Assembly (NCBI RefSeq): GCF_015330125.1
Contig: NZ_JADDXR010000002.1
Location: 2,368,685 to 2,432,684, forward strand
Source of the DNA: Zobellia nedashkovskayae
Lineage (GTDB): Bacteria; Bacteroidota; Bacteroidia; Flavobacteriales; Flavobacteriaceae
Length of the DNA stretch: 64,000 bases
Direction of reading: 5' to 3'
Below are positions 15,149 through 48,641 of the stretch, one piece after another. Within the stretch, counting starts at the first letter, position 1. Each line of letters begins with the position of its first letter. A model generated the notes under the pieces. It saw only the letters and a program-made list of their open reading frames with translations, had not been told where the DNA came from and did not search any database. A program made the translations under genes and the position numbers.

Positions 15149-16423
15149 ATGAGTGACCAGAAATTCTCAACCAACGCTTTACATGCCGGACATGATCCCG
15201 CACAAACAGGAGGAACACGTGCCGTACCTATTTATCAAACATCATCATATGTTTTTAATGATACAGACCATGCGGCTAATTTATTTTCGTTAGCAGAACT
15301 TGGTTTTATATATACTAGATTGAACAACCCTACCAATCAAATTCTTCAAGATAGATTGGCTGCCGTAGAAGGTGGGGTAGGAGCTGTAGTTTTTGCTTCG
15401 GGAACTGCTGCTATTTCTACAGGTTTATTAACACTTTTAAAAGCGGGAGACCATATTGTGGCTTCCAGCAGTTTATATGGTGGTACTTTCAATTTATTGA
15501 ATGTTACCTTGCCAAGATTGGGAATCACTACTACTTTTGTAGATGCTTCTGATCCAGAAAGTTTTGGAAAAGCAGTACAGGATAATACAAGGGCTTTCTT
15601 TGTAGAATCGTTAGGTAATCCAAAATTGGATGTACTAGATTTAAAAGCGATTTCAAAACAAGCTAAAGCGGCACAGGTGCCTTTTATTGTAGACAATACA
15701 GTGGCTTCACCAGCACTTTTGAATCCTATTGAGCATGGTGCTAACTTGGTTATACATTCACTTACTAAATATATTGGTGGTCATGGTTCTTCTTTAGGGG
15801 GAGCTATAATTGACGCCGGAACTTTTGATTGGACTAACGGAAAATTCCCTGAATTTACTGAGCCATCCGCAGGTTACCACGGTTTGGTTTATAGCGAAGC
15901 TCTAGGTGCAGCTGCTTTTACTTTTAAATTGATTTTGGAAGGATTGCGTGATTTTGGTGGAGCTTTGAGTCCGTTTAACGCATTCCAGATTATACAAGGT
16001 TTGGAAACATTGAACGTGCGTATCAAGCAACACAGTGTAAACGCTCTAGAATTGGCCACTTGGTTAGAAGGAAGAGAAGAAGTGGCATGGGTAAACTACC
16101 CAGGTCTTAAGAGTAGTAAGTACTATGATTTAGCCAAAGAGTATTTACCAAAAGGACAAAGTGGATTAGTTACGTTTGGAATAAAAGGAGGTTTTGAGGC
16201 GGCTAAAAAAGTTACCGATGCTACCAAGATTTTCTCTCTATTAGCTAACATTGGCGATACCAAATCATTGATTATCCACCCAGCTAGTACAACGCATCAG
16301 CAGTTAAATGCAGAGCAACTAGAAGCAGCTGGTGTAGGTCAAGATCTAATTCGTTTGTCAGTTGGTTTAGAAGATATAGAGGATTTAAAAGCAGATTTGG
16401 AAAATGCTTTCGCAGCACTCTAA
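15149..16423 (+). CDS. metY: O-acetylhomoserine sulfhydrylase (MetY)
   Basis: This 424-residue PLP enzyme combines an O-acylhomoserine with sulfide to give homocysteine. It belongs to the Cys/Met metabolism PLP family: the N-terminus reads TNALHAGHDPAQTGGTRAVPIYQTSSY, and the PLP lysine lies in SLTKYIGGHG near residue 210. Length, about 40 residues above cystathionine gamma-synthase, is typical for MetY. It is first in the operon behind a SAM-I riboswitch, 75 bases before the MetX-aspartokinase-HSD fusion that supplies its substrate. Sulfide would come from the cys operon at 27-35 kb. Confidence 0.94.
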   Translation: MSDQKFSTNALHAGHDPAQTGGTRAVPIYQTSSYVFNDTDHAANLFSLAELGFIYTRLNNPTNQILQDRLAAVEGGVGAVVFASGTAAISTGLLTLLKAGDHIVASSSLYGGTFNLLNVTLPRLGITTTFVDASDPESFGKAVQDNTRAFFVESLGNPKLDVLDLKAISKQAKAAQVPFIVDNTVASPALLNPIEHGANLVIHSLTKYIGGHGSSLGGAIIDAGTFDWTNGKFPEFTEPSAGYHGLVYSEALGAAAFTFKLILEGLRDFGGALSPFNAFQIIQGLETLNVRIKQHSVNALELATWLEGREEVAWVNYPGLKSSKYYDLAKEYLPKGQSGLVTFGIKGGFEAAKKVTDATKIFSLLANIGDTKSLIIHPASTTHQQLNAEQLEAAGVGQDLIRLSVGLEDIEDLKADLENAFAAL

Positions 16424-16455: not shown

Positions 16456-16485
16456 GACCTAACCCGGTGTTATGTCGGGTAGGTC
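16456..16485 (+). promoter_or_regulatory. Stable hairpin between metY and the fusion gene
   Basis: GACCTAACCCG (16456-16466) pairs with CGGGTAGGTC (16476-16485), with one bulged A and a nine-base loop. The upstream ATG candidate at 16472 lies inside this loop, which argues that translation starts at the next in-frame ATG (16499). No T tract follows, so it may be a processing or translation-control element rather than a terminator. Confidence 0.6.
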
Positions 16486-16498
16486 TAATACAAGTCGT

Positions 16499-19400
16499 AT
16501 GCTTCATCATTTGAAATTAGCAAACTATACTACAATTAGTGGGGTAACTCAAGATATTGAGTTGTCTTATCAGTTGTTTGGTCAAGAATTGCACACTGCA
16601 CCCATAGTACAGGTTAACCATGCTTTAACCGGTAACTCTAATGTTACAGGAAAAGGCGGTTGGTGGTCTGCACTTATTGGCGAAGGCAGATGTATTGACA
16701 CCAAAAAATACACGATATTATCGTTTAATATTCCCGGTAACGGAGACGATAAATTCATTATCGATAATTATAAAGATTTCGTAGCGGGAGACATTGCAAG
16801 AATTTTCTTGTTGGGGCTTCACGAACTTGAAATCACGAAATTATTCGCGCTTTTGGGTGGCTCTTTAGGAGGAGGAATTGCCTGGGAAATGGCTGCCATC
16901 AATCCTAAAATGATGCAACATCTCATTCCTGTGGCATCTGATTGGAAGTCTACGGATTGGTTGATAGGGAACTGTCAGATTCAAGAGCAGTTTTTGGTAA
17001 ATAGTAAGCAGCCTGTTCATGATGCACGTATGCATGCCATGCTTTGTTACCGTACACCTGAATCGTTCAAAGAACGTTTCAAAAGAAGCACTAATGAAGA
17101 GCTTCAGGTTTTTAATGTGGAGAGCTGGTTAAGACATCATGGAGAAAAGCTGCAAGAACGTTTTCAGCTTTCGGCCTATAAGCTCATGAACCAATTACTC
17201 AAGACTATAGATGTCATGAGAGATGGGGAACAGAATTTTATCGACCTTCAAAACAGTGATGTAAACATTCATATTATTGGGGTAGATTCTGATTTGTTCT
17301 TTACGGCAAAAGAAAATAAAGAAACCTTTAAGCGGTTAGCACAGGCCAATGGTAACGTGACTTATGGTGAGGTACATTCTCTTCATGGGCATGATGCTTT
17401 TTTGATTGAGTTTGAACAGATGGAAAGGCTATTGGAACCTATTTTTAGTACCAATGGAAAGTCAAAACAAGCGAAGGTCCTGAAGTTTGGTGGAAAATCA
17501 CTTGCCAATGGTGAAGGGTTGGAACGTGTCTTGGAAATTATTTCTAGCAAAGTAAAAGAAGGTGAAAATATTGCCGTAGTTCTGTCTGCTAGAGCAAAGG
17601 GAACTGACCAATTGGAAGCTATTTTAGAAAAGGCAGCCAATGGCGAAAACTATTATAAGGATTTTGAGGCTTTTGAAAAATATCAGAAGCATACATTTAA
17701 GAACGTTAACCTTTCGGCGGAGTTCAAAGACCTCGCAAAGTTGCTTGAAGGAGTTTCTCTTTTGGGAGATTACAGCCTAAAAATAAAAGACCAGTTATTG
17801 TCTTTTGGCGAGCTTATCTCTGCAAAATTGGTCACTAAATTATTGATAGGGAAAGGTGTAAAAGCCGTAATGCTTGATGCTAGAAAACTGATAAAAACCG
17901 ATTCTAATTTTGGCGATGCTTCTGTTAATGAAGTTTTATCAAAAGAGTATGTGTTACGAAGTTTTGCTAAGCTAGATGCGGATGAAGTGCCTATTATTAC
18001 AGGTTTTATTGCTTCTGATGAAAAAGGAGAAACTACCACTTTAGGTCGTAACGGTAGTAACTATTCTGCAGCGTTGTTTGCTAATTTCTTGAATGCAGAA
18101 GAACTTCAGAATTATACCCACGTAGATGGTATTTACACAGCTAATCCTGATTTGGTGTCCGATGCTAAACGTATTTCTCACCTTTCTTACGGAGAGGCGA
18201 ATGAACTAGCTAATTTTGGTGCTACTATTTTGCACGCCAAAACCATAATTCCATTACTGGAAAAGAATATTCCGCTGCGTATTTTAAATACGTTCAACAA
18301 TGATAATGAAGGGACATTAATAAGTGCAAAGACCGAAGAGGGTGGTATTAAATCGCTATCTGTTATTGAAAATGTATCCTTAATTAATGTAGAGGGTAGA
18401 GGTCTTTTGGGTAAAGTAGGGGTGGATGCCCGTATTTTTAGCGCACTCCAAAAAAGCAATATAAGTGTTAGTATTATTTCGCAAGGTTCTTCTGAGCGAG
18501 GTATTGGGTTGGTTGTAAATGCTGATCAAGCACTAGAAGCTAAAAGAGCTTTAGATAGAGAATTTGAAAGCGATTATCAGTCCAAGGATATTAACATGAT
18601 TACGGTCTTGGATGAGGTTTCGGTTATATCAATTGTGGGTCAGGACTTGAGTACGTTCCATAGACCTTACAACTCTTTGATTAAAAATCAGATAGCACCA
18701 CTACTTTTTAATAATACGGTATCTGGCAAGAACGTGAGTCTTGTCTTAAGAAAATCTGATTTGAATAAAGCATTGAATGTAATGCACGGTCAGATTTTTG
18801 GAATCAGTAAAAAGGTGAATTTGGTGATTTTTGGTCACGGAAATGTTGGAGGAACGCTTATTGACCAAATCTTAAAATCGACTAAAACCATACAAAAACG
18901 AAAAGGTATAGACCTGAATGTTTTTGCTGTAGCCAATTCTAGAAAGATTTTATTGAATAAAAAAGGAATTCCTAAAAACTGGAAATCCGCCATTGAGGAT
19001 AAAGGTATTGCTTATAGCGTTGAAGATGTTATTGCTTATACTAAAGAGCACCATTTAGAAAACTTGATTGTTGTAGATAATACGGCAAACAGTGATTTTG
19101 TAGCGCATTATTTTGAGTTTGTAGAAAATGGTTTTGATATTGTTTCGTCCAATAAAATAGCGAACACCTTAGGCTTTGATTATTATCAGTTATTACGAGA
19201 AGAACTGGATAAACATCAGAAACAATACTTGTATGAAACTAATGTAGGTGCTGGTCTTCCGTTAATAGATACGATACGTTTATTACATCTTTCAGGTGAA
19301 AATATCACAGGTATAAAAGGTGTGTTCTCGGGCTCGTTAAGTTATATTTTCAATACTTTTTCTGAGAGCGAAGAGCCATTTTCGAACATATTAAGGGCGG

Positions 19401-19885
19401 CAATGAAAAGCGGCTTTACAGAGCCAGACCCTCGTGAGGACCTTTCAGGTAATGACGTAGGTAGAAAGCTGTTGATTCTTGCCAGAGAATTGGATTTGAG
19501 CAACGAGTTTTCGGATATACATATTGAAAACCTGATACCGGAAGAATTGAGAGATGGCGATGTCAACCATTTTCTTGACAACTTAGATTTGGTAGATGCG
19601 AAGTTCAACGAAATTAAAAAGAACCAGAAACCAGGTCATGTACTTAGGTATGTGGGCGATTTACACGGAAACCTTCAAGAAGAGAAAGGTATACTGGATG
19701 TAAAATTGGTTTCGGTGCCAAAAGAAAGCGCATTGGGACAAGTAAAAGGTTCCGATTCTATAATAGAAATATATACGGAATCGTATGGGGAAAACCCGTT
19801 GGTGATTCAAGGAGCAGGAGCAGGAGCAGCGGTTACGGCAAGAGGTGTTTTTGGGGATATCCTCAGAATAGCCGAAAAAGGATAA
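16499..19885 (+). CDS. Trifunctional homoserine O-acetyltransferase / aspartate kinase / homoserine dehydrogenase
   Basis: This 1128-residue protein fuses three enzymes. Residues 1-320 are a MetX-type alpha/beta-hydrolase acyltransferase with nucleophile S122 (GGSLGGG), D265 (VDSDLFF) and H298 (LHGHDAF). Residues about 325-760 are aspartokinase (VLKFGGKSLANG, TLGRNGSNYSAA, VDGIYTANPD) with an ACT region. Residues about 770-1128 are homoserine dehydrogenase (IFGHGNVGG near 778, GVFSGSLSYIFN). It would phosphorylate aspartate, reduce the semialdehyde to homoserine, then acylate homoserine. The aspartokinase signature usually reads KFGGTS; here Lys333 replaces Thr. Asd, needed between the two ThrA steps, is not fused. 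An ATG at 16472 would add nine residues but lies in a hairpin loop. Confidence 0.92.
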   Translation: MLHHLKLANYTTISGVTQDIELSYQLFGQELHTAPIVQVNHALTGNSNVTGKGGWWSALIGEGRCIDTKKYTILSFNIPGNGDDKFIIDNYKDFVAGDIARIFLLGLHELEITKLFALLGGSLGGGIAWEMAAINPKMMQHLIPVASDWKSTDWLIGNCQIQEQFLVNSKQPVHDARMHAMLCYRTPESFKERFKRSTNEELQVFNVESWLRHHGEKLQERFQLSAYKLMNQLLKTIDVMRDGEQNFIDLQNSDVNIHIIGVDSDLFFTAKENKETFKRLAQANGNVTYGEVHSLHGHDAFLIEFEQMERLLEPIFSTNGKSKQAKVLKFGGKSLANGEGLERVLEIISSKVKEGENIAVVLSARAKGTDQLEAILEKAANGENYYKDFEAFEKYQKHTFKNVNLSAEFKDLAKLLEGVSLLGDYSLKIKDQLLSFGELISAKLVTKLLIGKGVKAVMLDARKLIKTDSNFGDASVNEVLSKEYVLRSFAKLDADEVPIITGFIASDEKGETTTLGRNGSNYSAALFANFLNAEELQNYTHVDGIYTANPDLVSDAKRISHLSYGEANELANFGATILHAKTIIPLLEKNIPLRILNTFNNDNEGTLISAKTEEGGIKSLSVIENVSLINVEGRGLLGKVGVDARIFSALQKSNISVSIISQGSSERGIGLVVNADQALEAKRALDREFESDYQSKDINMITVLDEVSVISIVGQDLSTFHRPYNSLIKNQIAPLLFNNTVSGKNVSLVLRKSDLNKALNVMHGQIFGISKKVNLVIFGHGNVGGTLIDQILKSTKTIQKRKGIDLNVFAVANSRKILLNKKGIPKNWKSAIEDKGIAYSVEDVIAYTKEHHLENLIVVDNTANSDFVAHYFEFVENGFDIVSSNKIANTLGFDYYQLLREELDKHQKQYLYETNVGAGLPLIDTIRLLHLSGENITGIKGVFSGSLSYIFNTFSESEEPFSNILRAAMKSGFTEPDPREDLSGNDVGRKLLILARELDLSNEFSDIHIENLIPEELRDGDVNHFLDNLDLVDAKFNEIKKNQKPGHVLRYVGDLHGNLQEEKGILDVKLVSVPKESALGQVKGSDSIIEIYTESYGENPLVIQGAGAGAAVTARGVFGDILRIAEKG

Positions 19886-44472: not shown

Positions 44473-44501
44473 TTTATTTTTAAATTTAATTGTTACTTTA
44501 G
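44473..44501 (+). promoter_or_regulatory. Candidate promoter of the aromatic operon leader
   Basis: TTTA (44473-44476), a 17-base spacer and TACTTTAG (44494-44501, one mismatch to TAnnTTTG) lie 18 bases before the leader peptide start. Confidence 0.45.
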
Positions 44502-44519
44502 CCGAAGTTTAAGTGTGTT

Positions 44520-44591
44520 ATGACAAAGCAATTCTTTTTTAGCGGTTTTTATTTTTACTTCTTTTTTAAGAGAGGTATGGGACTGTTGTAA
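44520..44591 (+). CDS. pheL: Phe/Tyr leader peptide of the pheA operon
   Basis: A 23-codon frame encodes MTKQFFFSGFYFYFFFKRGM then GLL. Of residues 5-16, eight are Phe and two are Tyr. This is the pattern of ribosome-stalling leader peptides such as E. coli PheL. It lies 115 bases before prephenate dehydratase and ends just before mutually exclusive hairpins. When charged tRNA-Phe or tRNA-Tyr is scarce the ribosome would stall in the Phe/Tyr run, leaving GGGACT (44579-44584, within the last codons) free to form the antiterminator. Normally the ribosome reaches the stop codon and covers that segment, allowing termination. The symbol is used by analogy. Confidence 0.82.
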   Translation: MTKQFFFSGFYFYFFFKRGMGLL

Positions 44592-44644
44592 AATATTGCA
44601 TGATATAAACAAATTAAAGTCCCGTGTAAAACGGGACTTTTTTT
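44576..44644 (+). terminator. Transcription attenuator of the aromatic operon
   Basis: The terminator is AAAGTCCCGT (44616-44625) with ACGGGACTTT (44631-44640) and loop GTAAA, running into a T tract. Its 5' arm AGTCCC (44618-44623) can instead pair with the upstream copy GGGACT (44579-44584), extended by wobble pairs to 44576 and by TTGT/ACAA (44586-44589 with 44609-44612). The two structures exclude each other, as an attenuator requires. Confidence 0.85.
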
Positions 44645-44705
44645 GTTCAATATCTATTCGGAATATCAGTTTAAAAATTTGTCATCACCAAGAAGAAAGT
44701 CAGTT

Positions 44706-45533
44706 ATGAAATTAAAAGTAGCCATTCAGGGAATTAAGGGATCTAACCACCATCAAGTGGCTCGAGAGTATTTTGACGATAATGTGGATATGGTTGAATG
44801 CATGTCTTTTGATTTCTTGGTGGACCAACTACTGAAAAAAACGGCAGATATAGGAGTAATGGCTATTGAGAATTCCATAGCAGGCTCAATCATTCCCAAT
44901 TACGCACTAGTTTATCATAAAGACTTACATATTGTAGGGGAGCATTACCTAAACATCCATCACAATTTGATGGTTTTAAAGGGGCAAAAAATATCCGATA
45001 TAGAAGAGGTTCGTTCACACCCAATGGCATTACTGCAATGCAAGGAATTTTTTGGTGATTATCCGCATATTAAAATGGTGGAAGATGTAGATACGGCCGA
45101 AACTGCAAAGCGTATTCAGGACCAACAATTGACACATATTGCAGCAATAGCACCGGAAGTCGCGGCCAGTTTATATGATTTGGACATCGTAGCGGACAAC
45201 ATACAGACCATTCAAAATAATGCAACCCGTTTTATCATTGTAAAAACAAAAAATAAGGAGCTTCCAAAAGAGGAAATTAACAAAGCTTCGGTACGCTTCG
45301 TAACAGACCATAAACGCGGAAGTCTTGCGGCTGTGCTTAATGTCATGAGCGATTGCAGATTGAATTTGACAAAAATACAGTCGTTGCCCATAATAGAGAC
45401 ACCATGGAAGTATGCGTTTTTTGTGGACGTAACTTTTGAAGATTACAACAATTTTGACAAGGCAAAAGCACTGTTGAACATCATGGCTGAAGACTTTAAG
45501 GTATTGGGTGAATATAAAAATGCTAGAATATGA
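44706..45533 (+). CDS. pheA: Prephenate dehydratase
   Basis: From ATG 44706 (MKLKVAIQGIKGSNHHQVARE) the 275-residue enzyme converts prephenate to phenylpyruvate, the branch step to Phe. The catalytic domain spans about residues 1-180, with GVMAIENSIAGSI near 60 and NNATRFIIV near 170. A C-terminal ACT domain (GSLAAVLNVMSDCRLNLTKIQS) suggests allosteric control by Phe. There is no fused chorismate mutase; that activity is in the DAHP synthase gene three genes on. The frame extends to 44643, but that start lies in the attenuator. Confidence 0.94.
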   Translation: MKLKVAIQGIKGSNHHQVAREYFDDNVDMVECMSFDFLVDQLLKKTADIGVMAIENSIAGSIIPNYALVYHKDLHIVGEHYLNIHHNLMVLKGQKISDIEEVRSHPMALLQCKEFFGDYPHIKMVEDVDTAETAKRIQDQQLTHIAAIAPEVAASLYDLDIVADNIQTIQNNATRFIIVKTKNKELPKEEINKASVRFVTDHKRGSLAAVLNVMSDCRLNLTKIQSLPIIETPWKYAFFVDVTFEDYNNFDKAKALLNIMAEDFKVLGEYKNARI

Positions 45534-46675
45534 TACGGACGGCTAATCGTTTACATACAGTTGAAGAATATTACTTCTCAAAGAAGCTTAGAGAGGTACG
45601 TGGTTTGATTGCCGAAGGAAGACCTGTTATCAATATGGGTATCGGTAGTCCTGACTTGGCTCCATCTGAATCAATAATTAAAAGCATTCAAGATGCCGTT
45701 TTAGAAAGTGGCGCGCATCAATACCAAAGTTATCAAGGTCTACCTGAATTACGTGAGGCCGTAGCTGACTTTTATAACTTAAAATTTGGAGTTACGCTAG
45801 ATGCATCTACGGAGATTTTACCATTAATGGGCTCCAAAGAAGGTATTATGCATATTAGTATGGCTTTTTTAAATGAAGGCGATATAGCTTTAATTCCTAA
45901 TCCAGGATACCCAACATATACGTCGGTTACAAAATTGGTAGGCGCAGAGGCTAAATATTATAACCTGACTGCAGAAAGCGGATGGTTCCCAGATTTGGAA
46001 GAATTACAAGAGCATGATTTAACTAAGGTGAAAATTATGTGGACGAGCTACCCACACATGCCAACTGGAGCAACGGCCACAAAGGCCCAGTTTAAAAAGT
46101 TGGTTGCTTTTGCGAAAAAGAATGATATTCTTTTGGTGAACGATAACCCGTACAGTTTTGTGCTGAATGATTCGCCAGCCAGTATTTTGGCTGTTGATGG
46201 GGCAAAAGATGTAGCGTTGGAGCTTAATTCTTTAAGTAAAACCTTTAACATGGCCGGTTGGCGTGTAGGTATGGTTTTAGGTAGTGCAGAACATATTAAT
46301 GCGGTACTAAAGGTAAAAAGCAACATGGATTCCGGTATGTTTTACGGAATACAAAAAGGAGCCATTGAGGCACTGAAAAGTGGTCAAGAGTGGTTTGATA
46401 AGTTGAATGAGCTATATAGTTCTAGGAGAGCATTAATGTACCAATTAGCGGACAAGTTAAATTGTACGTACGATGCTGATGCTGTTGGGATGTTTATTTG
46501 GGCAAAATTGCCGGAAGGAAGCAAATCTGCCGAAGAATTTATAGATGAGGTATTGTATGAAAAGAATCTTTTCATTACGCCAGGAACTATTTTCGGAAGT
46601 AATGGCGAAGGATATATTCGTTTCTCATTATGTGTGACAGAAGATAAAATTAAAGAAGCAATTAGTCGGTTTTAG
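45530..46675 (+). CDS. PLP-dependent aminotransferase (class I/II)
   Basis: The 381-residue fold-type I enzyme has the PLP lysine in LNSLSKTFNMAGWRVGM near residue 235 and substrate-binding INMGIGSPDLAPS near 35. Its ATG overlaps the pheA stop codon (ATGA), so translation is coupled. Between pheA and tyrA it most likely transaminates phenylpyruvate or 4-hydroxyphenylpyruvate, or prephenate itself. Sequence alone does not decide which. Confidence 0.9.
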   Translation: MIRTANRLHTVEEYYFSKKLREVRGLIAEGRPVINMGIGSPDLAPSESIIKSIQDAVLESGAHQYQSYQGLPELREAVADFYNLKFGVTLDASTEILPLMGSKEGIMHISMAFLNEGDIALIPNPGYPTYTSVTKLVGAEAKYYNLTAESGWFPDLEELQEHDLTKVKIMWTSYPHMPTGATATKAQFKKLVAFAKKNDILLVNDNPYSFVLNDSPASILAVDGAKDVALELNSLSKTFNMAGWRVGMVLGSAEHINAVLKVKSNMDSGMFYGIQKGAIEALKSGQEWFDKLNELYSSRRALMYQLADKLNCTYDADAVGMFIWAKLPEGSKSAEEFIDEVLYEKNLFITPGTIFGSNGEGYIRFSLCVTEDKIKEAISRF

Positions 46676-46698: not shown

Positions 46699-47559
46699 AT
46701 GAACGTTTTTATAATTGGTGTTGGGTTAATAGGCGGTTCTTTCGCAAAGGACATCAAACGTCTACGTCCAGAGAGCAAAATTTACGGGGTAGATACAAGT
46801 GCTTCGCATATAAAGGAAGCATTAGATTTAGGTGTAATAGATTTAGAATCGAGTTATGCAGACTTGGGTCTTGCAGATATGGTTATTGTGAGTATTCCTG
46901 TAGATGTAATGATTACAGAGCTTCCAAAAATATTGGATGCAGTAAATGATAATTGCGTGGTTTTTGATGGTGGATCTACAAAAAGTTTGATTTGTAAAAC
47001 ATTAGATTCACATCCAAAGCGCAGAAATTATTTAGCAGCGCATCCTATTGCGGGTACCGAGCATTCAGGTCCCACGGCAGCTATTGAAAATTTATATGTA
47101 GGTAAGACCAATATTATTTGCGAGGTAGAAAAAACGGCTTTTAAACTTCAAGAAAGGGCTCTAGAGCTTTTTCAAGAGATAGGAATGCGTATTCGTTATA
47201 TGAATCCAGAAGCACATGATAAGCACATTGCATACGTGTCTCATTTGTCACACATCAGCTCTTTTATGTTGGGAAAGACCGTAATTGATAAAGAGAGAAA
47301 TGAACGTGATATTTTTGACATGGCGGGCAGTGGTTTTGAGAGCACGGTTAGGTTAGCAAAGAGTTCACCGGCCATGTGGACGCCTATTTTTGAACAGAAT
47401 AAAGAGAATGTGGTCGAAACTTTGACCGAATATATACAAAACCTACAGGAGTTTAAACACCTGCTGGAAAAAGGAGATTACACGGGAATTTTTAACGAAA
47501 TGAACGACACTAATAAAATAAAGGAAATTTTAAACGGAATACCACTAAACAAGAAGTAA
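46699..47559 (+). CDS. tyrA: Prephenate dehydrogenase
   Basis: The 286-residue enzyme oxidatively decarboxylates prephenate to 4-hydroxyphenylpyruvate for Tyr. The NAD(P) fold opens with FIIGVGLIGGSFAKDIK; the active-site stretch LAAHPIAGTEHSGP near 115 and the helical part HIAYVSHLSHISSFML near 175 match TyrA. There is no ACT or mutase domain. It sits 23 bases after the aminotransferase and its stop overlaps the next ATG by one base. Confidence 0.94.
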   Translation: MNVFIIGVGLIGGSFAKDIKRLRPESKIYGVDTSASHIKEALDLGVIDLESSYADLGLADMVIVSIPVDVMITELPKILDAVNDNCVVFDGGSTKSLICKTLDSHPKRRNYLAAHPIAGTEHSGPTAAIENLYVGKTNIICEVEKTAFKLQERALELFQEIGMRIRYMNPEAHDKHIAYVSHLSHISSFMLGKTVIDKERNERDIFDMAGSGFESTVRLAKSSPAMWTPIFEQNKENVVETLTEYIQNLQEFKHLLEKGDYTGIFNEMNDTNKIKEILNGIPLNKK

Positions 47560-48641
47560 TGGAGAATTCAAAAGAAATGAGAACATGGTTGGATGATATG
47601 GGTTTAGACCATCCACTAGTAATAGCAGGGCCATGTAGTGCTGAAACCGAGGAACAAGTGTTGCGTATTGCGCACGAGTTAAAAGATACCGATGTAAATT
47701 ACTACAGAGCGGGTATCTGGAAACCAAGAACACGACCAGGTAACTTTGAAGGTGTTGGCGCACTTGGTTTAAAGTGGTTGCAAAAAGTTAAGGCAGAGAC
47801 AGGTTTGAAAACGGCAACAGAAGTTGCTAACCGCGCGCATGTAGAGTTGGCATTAGAGCACGATGTAGATTTGTTGTGGGTTGGCGCACGTTCAACTGTG
47901 AGTCCATTTATCATGCAAGAATTAGCAGATGCCTTAGAAGGTACTGATAAGATTGTATTGGTGAAAAATCCGGTTAACCCAGATTTAGCTTTATGGTTAG
48001 GTGGTATAGAGCGTTTACATACCGCTGGAATCAAAAAATTAGGAGCTATTCATAGGGGTTTCTCTACCTATGAGAAAACAAAGTACAGAAACATTCCTGA
48101 ATGGCAATTGGCTATTGAGTTTCAAAATAAATTTCCTGATTTACCATTGATTAGTGATCCTTCACATATTACCGGTAATCGCGACATGATTTTTGATGTT
48201 TCGCAAACTGCATTAGATTTAAACTTTGATGGTTTAATGATCGAGACTCATTTTGACCCTGACAATGCTTGGAGTGATGCTGCTCAGCAAGTAACACCAG
48301 CAAAATTGGTGCAAATCATGAGGGATCTAAAAATCAGAAAAGAAACTGATAGTGAAGCAGAATACAATGCTAAGTTGAGCAATTTAAGAGCTCAGATAGA
48401 TATTCTTGATAATCAGTTGATCGAGGCTATGGGCAAACGTATGAAAGTTTCAGATGGTATTGGTGAGTTGAAAAAACAAAAGAACGTAGCAGTGCTACAA
48501 TCTAACCGATGGAACCAAATTCTTGGTGCTATGATTCTTGAAGGGGAATCAAAAGGATTGAGCGAAGAATTTATTCTTAAGATGTTTAAGGCCATTCACC
48601 AAGAATCTATCAATCATCAAGAGAAGATTGTAAACGGCTAG
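47559..48641 (+). CDS. Bifunctional DAHP synthase / chorismate mutase
   Basis: This 360-residue protein joins 3-deoxy-D-arabino-heptulosonate-7-phosphate synthase (residues about 1-265: LVIAGPCSAETEEQ, YRAGIWKPRTRPGNFEG, SDPSHITGNRD) to a C-terminal AroQ-type chorismate mutase (about 270-355: LRAQIDILDNQLIEAMGKRM, KVSDGIGELKKQ). It therefore commits carbon to the shikimate pathway and later makes prephenate for the PheA and TyrA of the same operon. Chorismate mutase as C-terminal partner is the usual Bacteroidota order; feedback by prephenate or chorismate is plausible. TAATG coupling with tyrA. Confidence 0.93.
   Translation: MENSKEMRTWLDDMGLDHPLVIAGPCSAETEEQVLRIAHELKDTDVNYYRAGIWKPRTRPGNFEGVGALGLKWLQKVKAETGLKTATEVANRAHVELALEHDVDLLWVGARSTVSPFIMQELADALEGTDKIVLVKNPVNPDLALWLGGIERLHTAGIKKLGAIHRGFSTYEKTKYRNIPEWQLAIEFQNKFPDLPLISDPSHITGNRDMIFDVSQTALDLNFDGLMIETHFDPDNAWSDAAQQVTPAKLVQIMRDLKIRKETDSEAEYNAKLSNLRAQIDILDNQLIEAMGKRMKVSDGIGELKKQKNVAVLQSNRWNQILGAMILEGESKGLSEEFILKMFKAIHQESINHQEKIVNG

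Follow-up and report, generated by a model that had tools for sequence, protein, structure and literature searches.

Introduction

The locus before pheA in Zobellia nedashkovskayae raises the question of whether a short reading frame crowded with Phe and Tyr codons, together with the hairpin that follows it, lets a translating ribosome decide if the operon is transcribed. This was proposed by an original prediction made from the letters of a 64,000-nucleotide stretch of contig NZ_JADDXR010000002.1 (hereafter the window, in whose coordinates all positions are given unless stated otherwise). We followed it up by comparison with related loci and by RNA folding. On the anatomy of the leader and its comparison with relatives, the element is very probably a ribosome-mediated transcription attenuator, a reading supported by conservation, covariation, spacing and folding.

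Anatomy of the leader and operon

The frame opens with the ATG at 44520, and its control codons, 5-16, hold all eight Phe and both Tyr of the leader, matching base for base the frame that had been predicted (Table 1). The GGGACT core of the antiterminator at 44579-44584 lies in codons 20-22, and the intrinsic terminator at 44616-44640 has a 10-bp stem and a loop at 44626-44630; for both, the predicted positions before pheA were exact. The reading frames agree with the claimed operon of pheA, an aminotransferase, tyrA and a DAHP synthase/mutase, and 76 of 80 near loci (defined below) have the same order, the remaining four being truncated by contig ends. The pheA start was taken as the ATG at 44706, the longest frame beginning at TTG 44643; pheA is 98% identical to that of Z. 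barbeyronii, and the Z. nedashkovskayae genome is 4.94 Mb.

Table 1 Features of the pheA leader and operon in the window
Feature	Position	Strand	Sequence or basis
Putative -7 promoter element	44494..44501	+	TACTTTAG; one mismatch to TAnnTTTG; weak
Leader peptide frame	44520..44591	+	MTKQFFFSGFYFYFFFKRGMGLL; 23 codons; stop TAA 44589-44591
1:2 structure without ribosome (Zobellia)	44540..44588	+	Folds of the window
Arm 2, antiterminator 5' arm	44577..44584	+	ATGGGACT; within codons 20-22
Arm 3, common to antiterminator (44618-44625) and terminator	44616..44625	+	AAAGTCCCGT; terminator stem 5' strand AAAGUCCCGU
Arm 4, terminator 3' arm	44631..44640	+	ACGGGACTTT; stem 3' strand ACGGGACUUU
T-run of intrinsic terminator	44638..44644	+	Sequence
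pheA, prephenate dehydratase	44706..45533	+	PF00800 match in own genome
Aminotransferase	45530..46675	+	ORF; family named by eye
tyrA, prephenate dehydrogenase	46699..47559	+	ORF; family named by eye
DAHP synthase fused to chorismate mutase	47559..48641	+	ORF; family named by eye

Transcription would be expected to start a few bases 3' of the putative -7 element, for which TAnnTTTG is the consensus. With at most one mismatch allowed, such an element is found within the 60 nt 5' of the leader ATG in 80/80 near loci, against 912/1600 shuffles. Exact matches occur in 2/80 near loci (shuffles, 69/1600) and in 25/62 far loci (shuffles, 52/1240). In 136 of 142 loci, no Shine-Dalgarno-like four-mer is present at a distance of up to 20 nt from where the leader starts; to our knowledge, translation in Bacteroidota is mostly started without Shine-Dalgarno sequences.

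Loci used for comparison

The near set comprises 80 loci kept out of 126 relatives. In the order sample (Flavobacteriales), 87 of 146 genomes matched, the own genome included, and 40 loci were fetched; in the class sample (Bacteroidia), 57 of 197 matched, 49 of them new, and again 40 were fetched. The order and class loci were hand-picked to span families, so that their tallies are not frequencies: from family f15, with 600-kb genomes, two of 25 matches were taken, and from family f4 seven of 24. Three loci (L082, L084 and L085) apparently duplicate L006, L061 and L079, respectively, judging from the lengths of their contigs. A phylum sample, in which 172 of 198 genomes matched, supplied another 40 loci fetched among the matches listed, 37 of them outside the class; these 40 are excluded from the 160-locus counts.

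Aromatic codons are conserved before pheA

Seventy-one of the 80 near leaders have 23 codons. Among these 71, column 6 is Phe in 70, columns 6, 10 and 12 use both TTC and TTT for Phe, column 14 is TTC throughout, and column 7 divides into 41 Trp, 15 Tyr and 15 Phe, Zobellia having Phe. The conservation of Phe and Tyr codons among relatives, which had been named as a check on the prediction, was therefore found, with synonymous changes at the conserved Phe columns. Trp codons are also present in 47 of the 80 near and 25 of the 62 far leaders. For Zobellia, Phe and Tyr would be the sensed pair, as proposed; for the many relatives that carry Trp too, the proposal has to be extended.

These data bear on the alternative that the hairpin is a plain terminator after the upstream gene, with an accidental Phe-rich frame and a pheA promoter lying further downstream. 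The stretch is indeed T-rich, which makes TTT codons cheap. However, windows with at least eight aromatic codons in twelve occur upstream of pheA in 80/80 near loci, against 1/653 control windows upstream of other long frames at the same 80 loci (47/80 pheA windows in the order and class sets), and Phe and Tyr persist through synonymous changes and Phe-Tyr-Trp exchanges. Moreover, arm 2 of the leader pairs with the terminator, and in places the two have changed together, as described below. We consider this alternative highly improbable.

Alternative pairing and coupled changes between arms

In folds of the window without a ribosome, 44540-44549 pairs with 44579-44588, which contains GGGACT, below an apical hairpin at 44556-44577 (the 1:2 structure), and the fold of the 238-nt segment has a z of -3.71, equalled by none of 200 shuffles. 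With a ribosome on codon 16, the window folds into a helix between arms 2 and 3 (2:3) at -11.5 kcal/mol. When arm 4 is included, the terminator (3:4) beats the antiterminator at equilibrium (-21.0), and therefore the antiterminator must form earlier in time.

Across the near set, with G-U counted, 543 of 560 cells keep the 2:3 pairing and 634 of 640 the 3:4 pairing. Arm 3 has changed from C to U in L012 and L024, with G to A at the partner bases of arms 2 and 4 alike; in L057 it has changed from U to C, with A to G at both partners, while an adjacent 2:3 pair is broken. That one arm 3 base should suit two different partners is required by two mutually exclusive hairpins. Few near loci (3/80) show two-sided changes of this kind, and variation in that set is mostly one-sided. 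The arm sets of distant loci differ yet stay complementary (GCCGGGACT/AGTCCCGGC, GAGGCTTT/AAAGCCTC, AGCGGGA/TCCCGCT and GGGATTGT/ACAATCCC). The compensatory hairpin changes that the original prediction had also called for are thus present, coupling arms 2, 3 and 4, a few of them in near loci and the rest from distant ones, and the claimed mutual exclusion of the two hairpins is borne out both by the folds and by the coupled changes in three arms.

The own best 2:3 run was matched by 118 of 3,100 shuffled arms. When arm 3 was swapped among loci, 667 of 2,720 swaps paired as well as the own arm; this is a weak control because many arms have UCCC in common, and shuffled arms and spacing were used in its place.

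Alternative pairing by itself would also be compatible with a regulator other than the ribosome, be it a protein or an RNA that binds a ligand (riboswitch) or tRNA (T-box), but this has very little probability, given that no T-box, known riboswitch or other Rfam family matched at the gathering score within 44473-44710 and that neither the cluster of aromatic codons nor its distance from arm 2 would be explained. The sole gathering-score matches in the window lie away from the leader, being two SAM riboswitches (RF00162, 14914-15026 and 34856-34963) and one SAM-II riboswitch (RF01726, 13425-13511). The first of the SAM riboswitches is directly 5' of a frame at 15149 that by eye resembles O-acetylhomoserine sulfhydrylase. 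A 1137-aa frame at 16472-19885 resembles, by eye and with a PF00742 match, a fusion of homoserine acetyltransferase and aspartokinase-homoserine dehydrogenase. Near the far end of the Z. barbeyronii locus lies a match to Flavo-1 RNA (RF01705; L002:445-523) whose score, 42.6, is slightly over the gathering score of 42.

Spacing between the control codons and arm 2

By its E. coli footprint, a ribosome covers about 9 nt beyond the codon in its A site. From the last aromatic codon to the start of arm 2 there are 7-11 nt in 80/80 near loci and 7-13 nt in 55 of the 62 distant order and class loci (52/59 without the three repeats L082, L084 and L085), the 7-13 nt range having been chosen after the spacings had been seen; with arm 3 shuffled, the same 7-13 nt spacing arises in 815 of 3,100 cases. 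The seven distant outliers have 3, 4, 5, 6, 14 and 14 nt, and, in L158, no preceding aromatic codon. E. coli pheL under the same treatment gives 8 nt. The spacing supports the view that arm 2 begins where the leading edge of a stalled ribosome would have to lie.

The position of arm 2 has an SD of 2.3 nt when measured from the last aromatic codon, compared with 5.0 nt from the start and 10.0 nt from the stop; the value of 2.3 nt is partly bounded by definition, and therefore the shuffle control was made. The start of arm 2 ranges from 34 nt 5' to 5 nt 3' of the last base of the stop codon, with L158 at 43 nt 5'. It is thus the control codons, not the stop, that set the geometry.

It has also to be considered that the frame might encode a functional small hydrophobic peptide, the hairpin terminating its own transcript. 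The peptide is indeed hydrophobic, and its sequence is alike across the near set. Beyond the near set, however, aromatic richness is conserved and the peptide sequence is not; the final residues overlie arm 2, and the position of the stop is highly variable whereas the codon-to-arm spacing is not. The chance that this explanation holds appears slight.

Modelled ribosome positions

RNA up to arm 3 was folded at equilibrium with a ribosome of E. coli footprint placed codon by codon. For the Z. barbeyronii copy, whose leader peptide is that of the window, the modelled 2:3 probability stays at 0.80-0.94 while any of codons 4-16 is in the A site, drops to 0.54 at codon 17 and is at most 0.001 from codon 18. 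With the ribosome on the last aromatic codon, the predicted median is 0.97 in the 80 near loci and 0.95 in 61 distant loci, with values above 0.5 in 80/80 and 56/61; six codons on, or at the stop, it falls below 0.1 in 80/80 and 59/61. L158 was left out because no aromatic codon precedes its arm 2, and L124, L139 and L150 do not pass the model. In E. coli pheL, the one positive control, the model gives 0.86-0.996 on Phe codons and 0 at the stop.

Without a ribosome, the modelled 2:3 probability is 0.002-0.07 in five Zobellia loci (L002-L006), arm 2 being hidden. This untranslated state of Zobellia is not general in the model: the ribosome-free probability is below 0.1 in 28 of the 142 loci and above 0.7 in 95, which are predicted to favour read-through. 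Stalling lifts 2:3 pairing above the untranslated state in 71/80 near and 43/61 distant loci. In the others (9/80 and 18/61), in most of which both values are already high in the model, it brings no gain, and where stalling adds nothing, passage of the ribosome rather than its stalling would be decisive.

Proposed mechanism

Taken together, the frame, terminator and alternative pairing, with their conservation, covariation and spacing, argue from sequence, comparison and folding for an attenuator, and we infer from them stalling, coupling and a response to tRNA charging. A ribosome would translate the 23-codon leader on the short RNA emerging from RNA polymerase. When charged Phe-tRNA and Tyr-tRNA are plentiful, it would move beyond codon 17 and cover arm 2, so that arms 3 and 4 could pair and transcription would end near 44644. 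When Phe or Tyr is short, it would stall on one of codons 5-16 with its leading edge just before arm 2. The exposed arm 2 could then take arm 3 before arm 4 exists, the terminator would be prevented, and pheA, the aminotransferase gene, tyrA and the DAHP synthase gene would be transcribed. In Zobellia, an untranslated leader would keep arm 2 hidden and favour termination.

Distribution in Bacteroidia

Leader plus terminator was scored where at least five of twelve codons are aromatic and a terminator with at least three G-C pairs lies within reach; a stricter rule of four G-C pairs misses six Flavobacteriaceae loci (L086-L089, L091 and L095). The combination was found before pheA in 80/80 near relatives, 30/40 order loci and 32/40 class loci. 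Leaders with at least seven aromatic codons in twelve number 80 in the near set, 29 in the order set and 26 in the class set. A hairpin conserved without its leader frame had been proposed as grounds for rejecting the attenuator; among the near relatives, both are present throughout.

The combination was not found in 18 of the 80 order and class loci, namely the seven f4 loci (L115-L121), two 600-kb reduced genomes and nine others; one f4 locus, L115, has the aromatic frame and lacks the terminator. In the f4 loci and the two reduced genomes (L110, L113 and L115-L121), pheA itself is present. The PheA identity of family f4 is 31-34% in six of the seven fetched and 44% in L115.

Under the four G-C rule, leader plus terminator was found in three of the 37 phylum loci beyond class Bacteroidia (L192, L193 and L196) and in two of the three phylum-sample loci inside it. 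The combination therefore appears to be mainly a Bacteroidia feature in these samples, and the three leaders outside may be either old or independently gained.

A broader reading is that these leaders belong to an attenuator family that is old and spread widely through Bacteroidia, in which many members would sense three aromatic amino acids, the codon-to-arm ruler would be fixed, and the untranslated leader would read through in most sampled loci, so that a translating ribosome would be needed for shut-off. We put this forward tentatively, as possible rather than probable. Ribosome-mediated attenuation requires that the ribosome keep pace with RNA polymerase. If a ribosome is indeed needed for shut-off, transcription and translation would be closely coupled at these leaders, in a group whose translation initiation is mostly free of Shine-Dalgarno sequences. 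Leaders so widespread in Bacteroidia would be ready reporters for transcription-translation coupling, and let one ask how ribosomes load fast without Shine-Dalgarno sequences and how signals from two or three amino acids are balanced in one leader.

Other candidate leaders

Candidate leaders were also seen before other amino-acid genes. In the same genome, a His-rich leader MKNRTTHHHFHIHAQAR with a terminator-like hairpin lies before hisG (L162:1195-1248). There the spacing was 2 nt, with arm 3 entered short, and the spacing rule failed; it is therefore not claimed for his. A Trp-rich leader MNRNNSNTWWWNNSRQIS lies before trpE (L163, reverse strand, 1328-1384 of the reverse complement), with a terminator-like hairpin, a short T-run, a spacing of 10 nt and an arm of 5 bp only. 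An Ile/Val/Leu-rich leader MKIKAHTIVVIDVILRRE with a terminator lies about 300 nt 5' of ilvD (L166:1028-1084), with a spacing of 10 nt and a 7-bp arm. A possible Thr leader 5' of the second homoserine dehydrogenase gene was unconvincing.

Comparison with known systems

A 2010 survey stated that leader-peptide systems had previously been found only in Proteobacteria and Actinobacteria, and added a case from Firmicutes (PMC2965389, in the part available). Within Bacteroidota, attenuation-like small frames are mentioned for Bacteroides in the accessible part of PMC7366714, and a table in the portion of PMC2864571 at hand marks the Bacteroid-trp motif (RF01692) of Bacteroidetes with 'y' for RNA and for cis-regulation. 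The name of RF01692 points to trp genes; it is a different motif from the pheA leader, and scanning the window and 11 loci gave no match to it at the gathering score.

A precedent lies in Flavobacterium psychrophilum, for which the accessible text of PMC9723704 reports strong clues of leader-peptide attenuation for amino-acid operons, as well as 5' elements before pheA and hisG that are common to other genera and without Rfam hits. Its pheA element occupies the same place as the Zobellia leader, in the same family, and is never explicitly named in that text as a leader-peptide case; the leader sequence, a codon analysis, covariation and a survey beyond the family are likewise not given in that text. 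The original prediction had called this control little documented in the phylum. In the light of PMC9723704, as far as its accessible text goes, it had already been noted in the family, and the claim holds in that no other leader-peptide analysis of a Bacteroidota pheA was among the matches listed in our search, which covered papers outside subscription. What is added here is codon, covariation, spacing and class-level evidence.

No Rfam family falls on the leader at the gathering score in the window or in the pheA loci of eight relatives, and the E. coli Phe_leader family (RF01859) scores 32.5 bits in comparison with a gathering score of 55. In plan, the Zobellia leader is nonetheless like E. 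coli pheL-pheA, sharing a Phe-rich leader, a terminator, an exclusive antiterminator and 8 nt from codon to arm, and in both, according to the model, arm 2 would be hidden when the leader is untranslated. The two differ in that the Zobellia leader intersperses Tyr, to which many relatives add Trp; that arm 2 lies inside the frame in Zobellia, whereas it follows the stop in pheL; and that the operon downstream in Zobellia also has tyrA and DAHP synthase, in keeping with the original prediction of one leader before all four genes.
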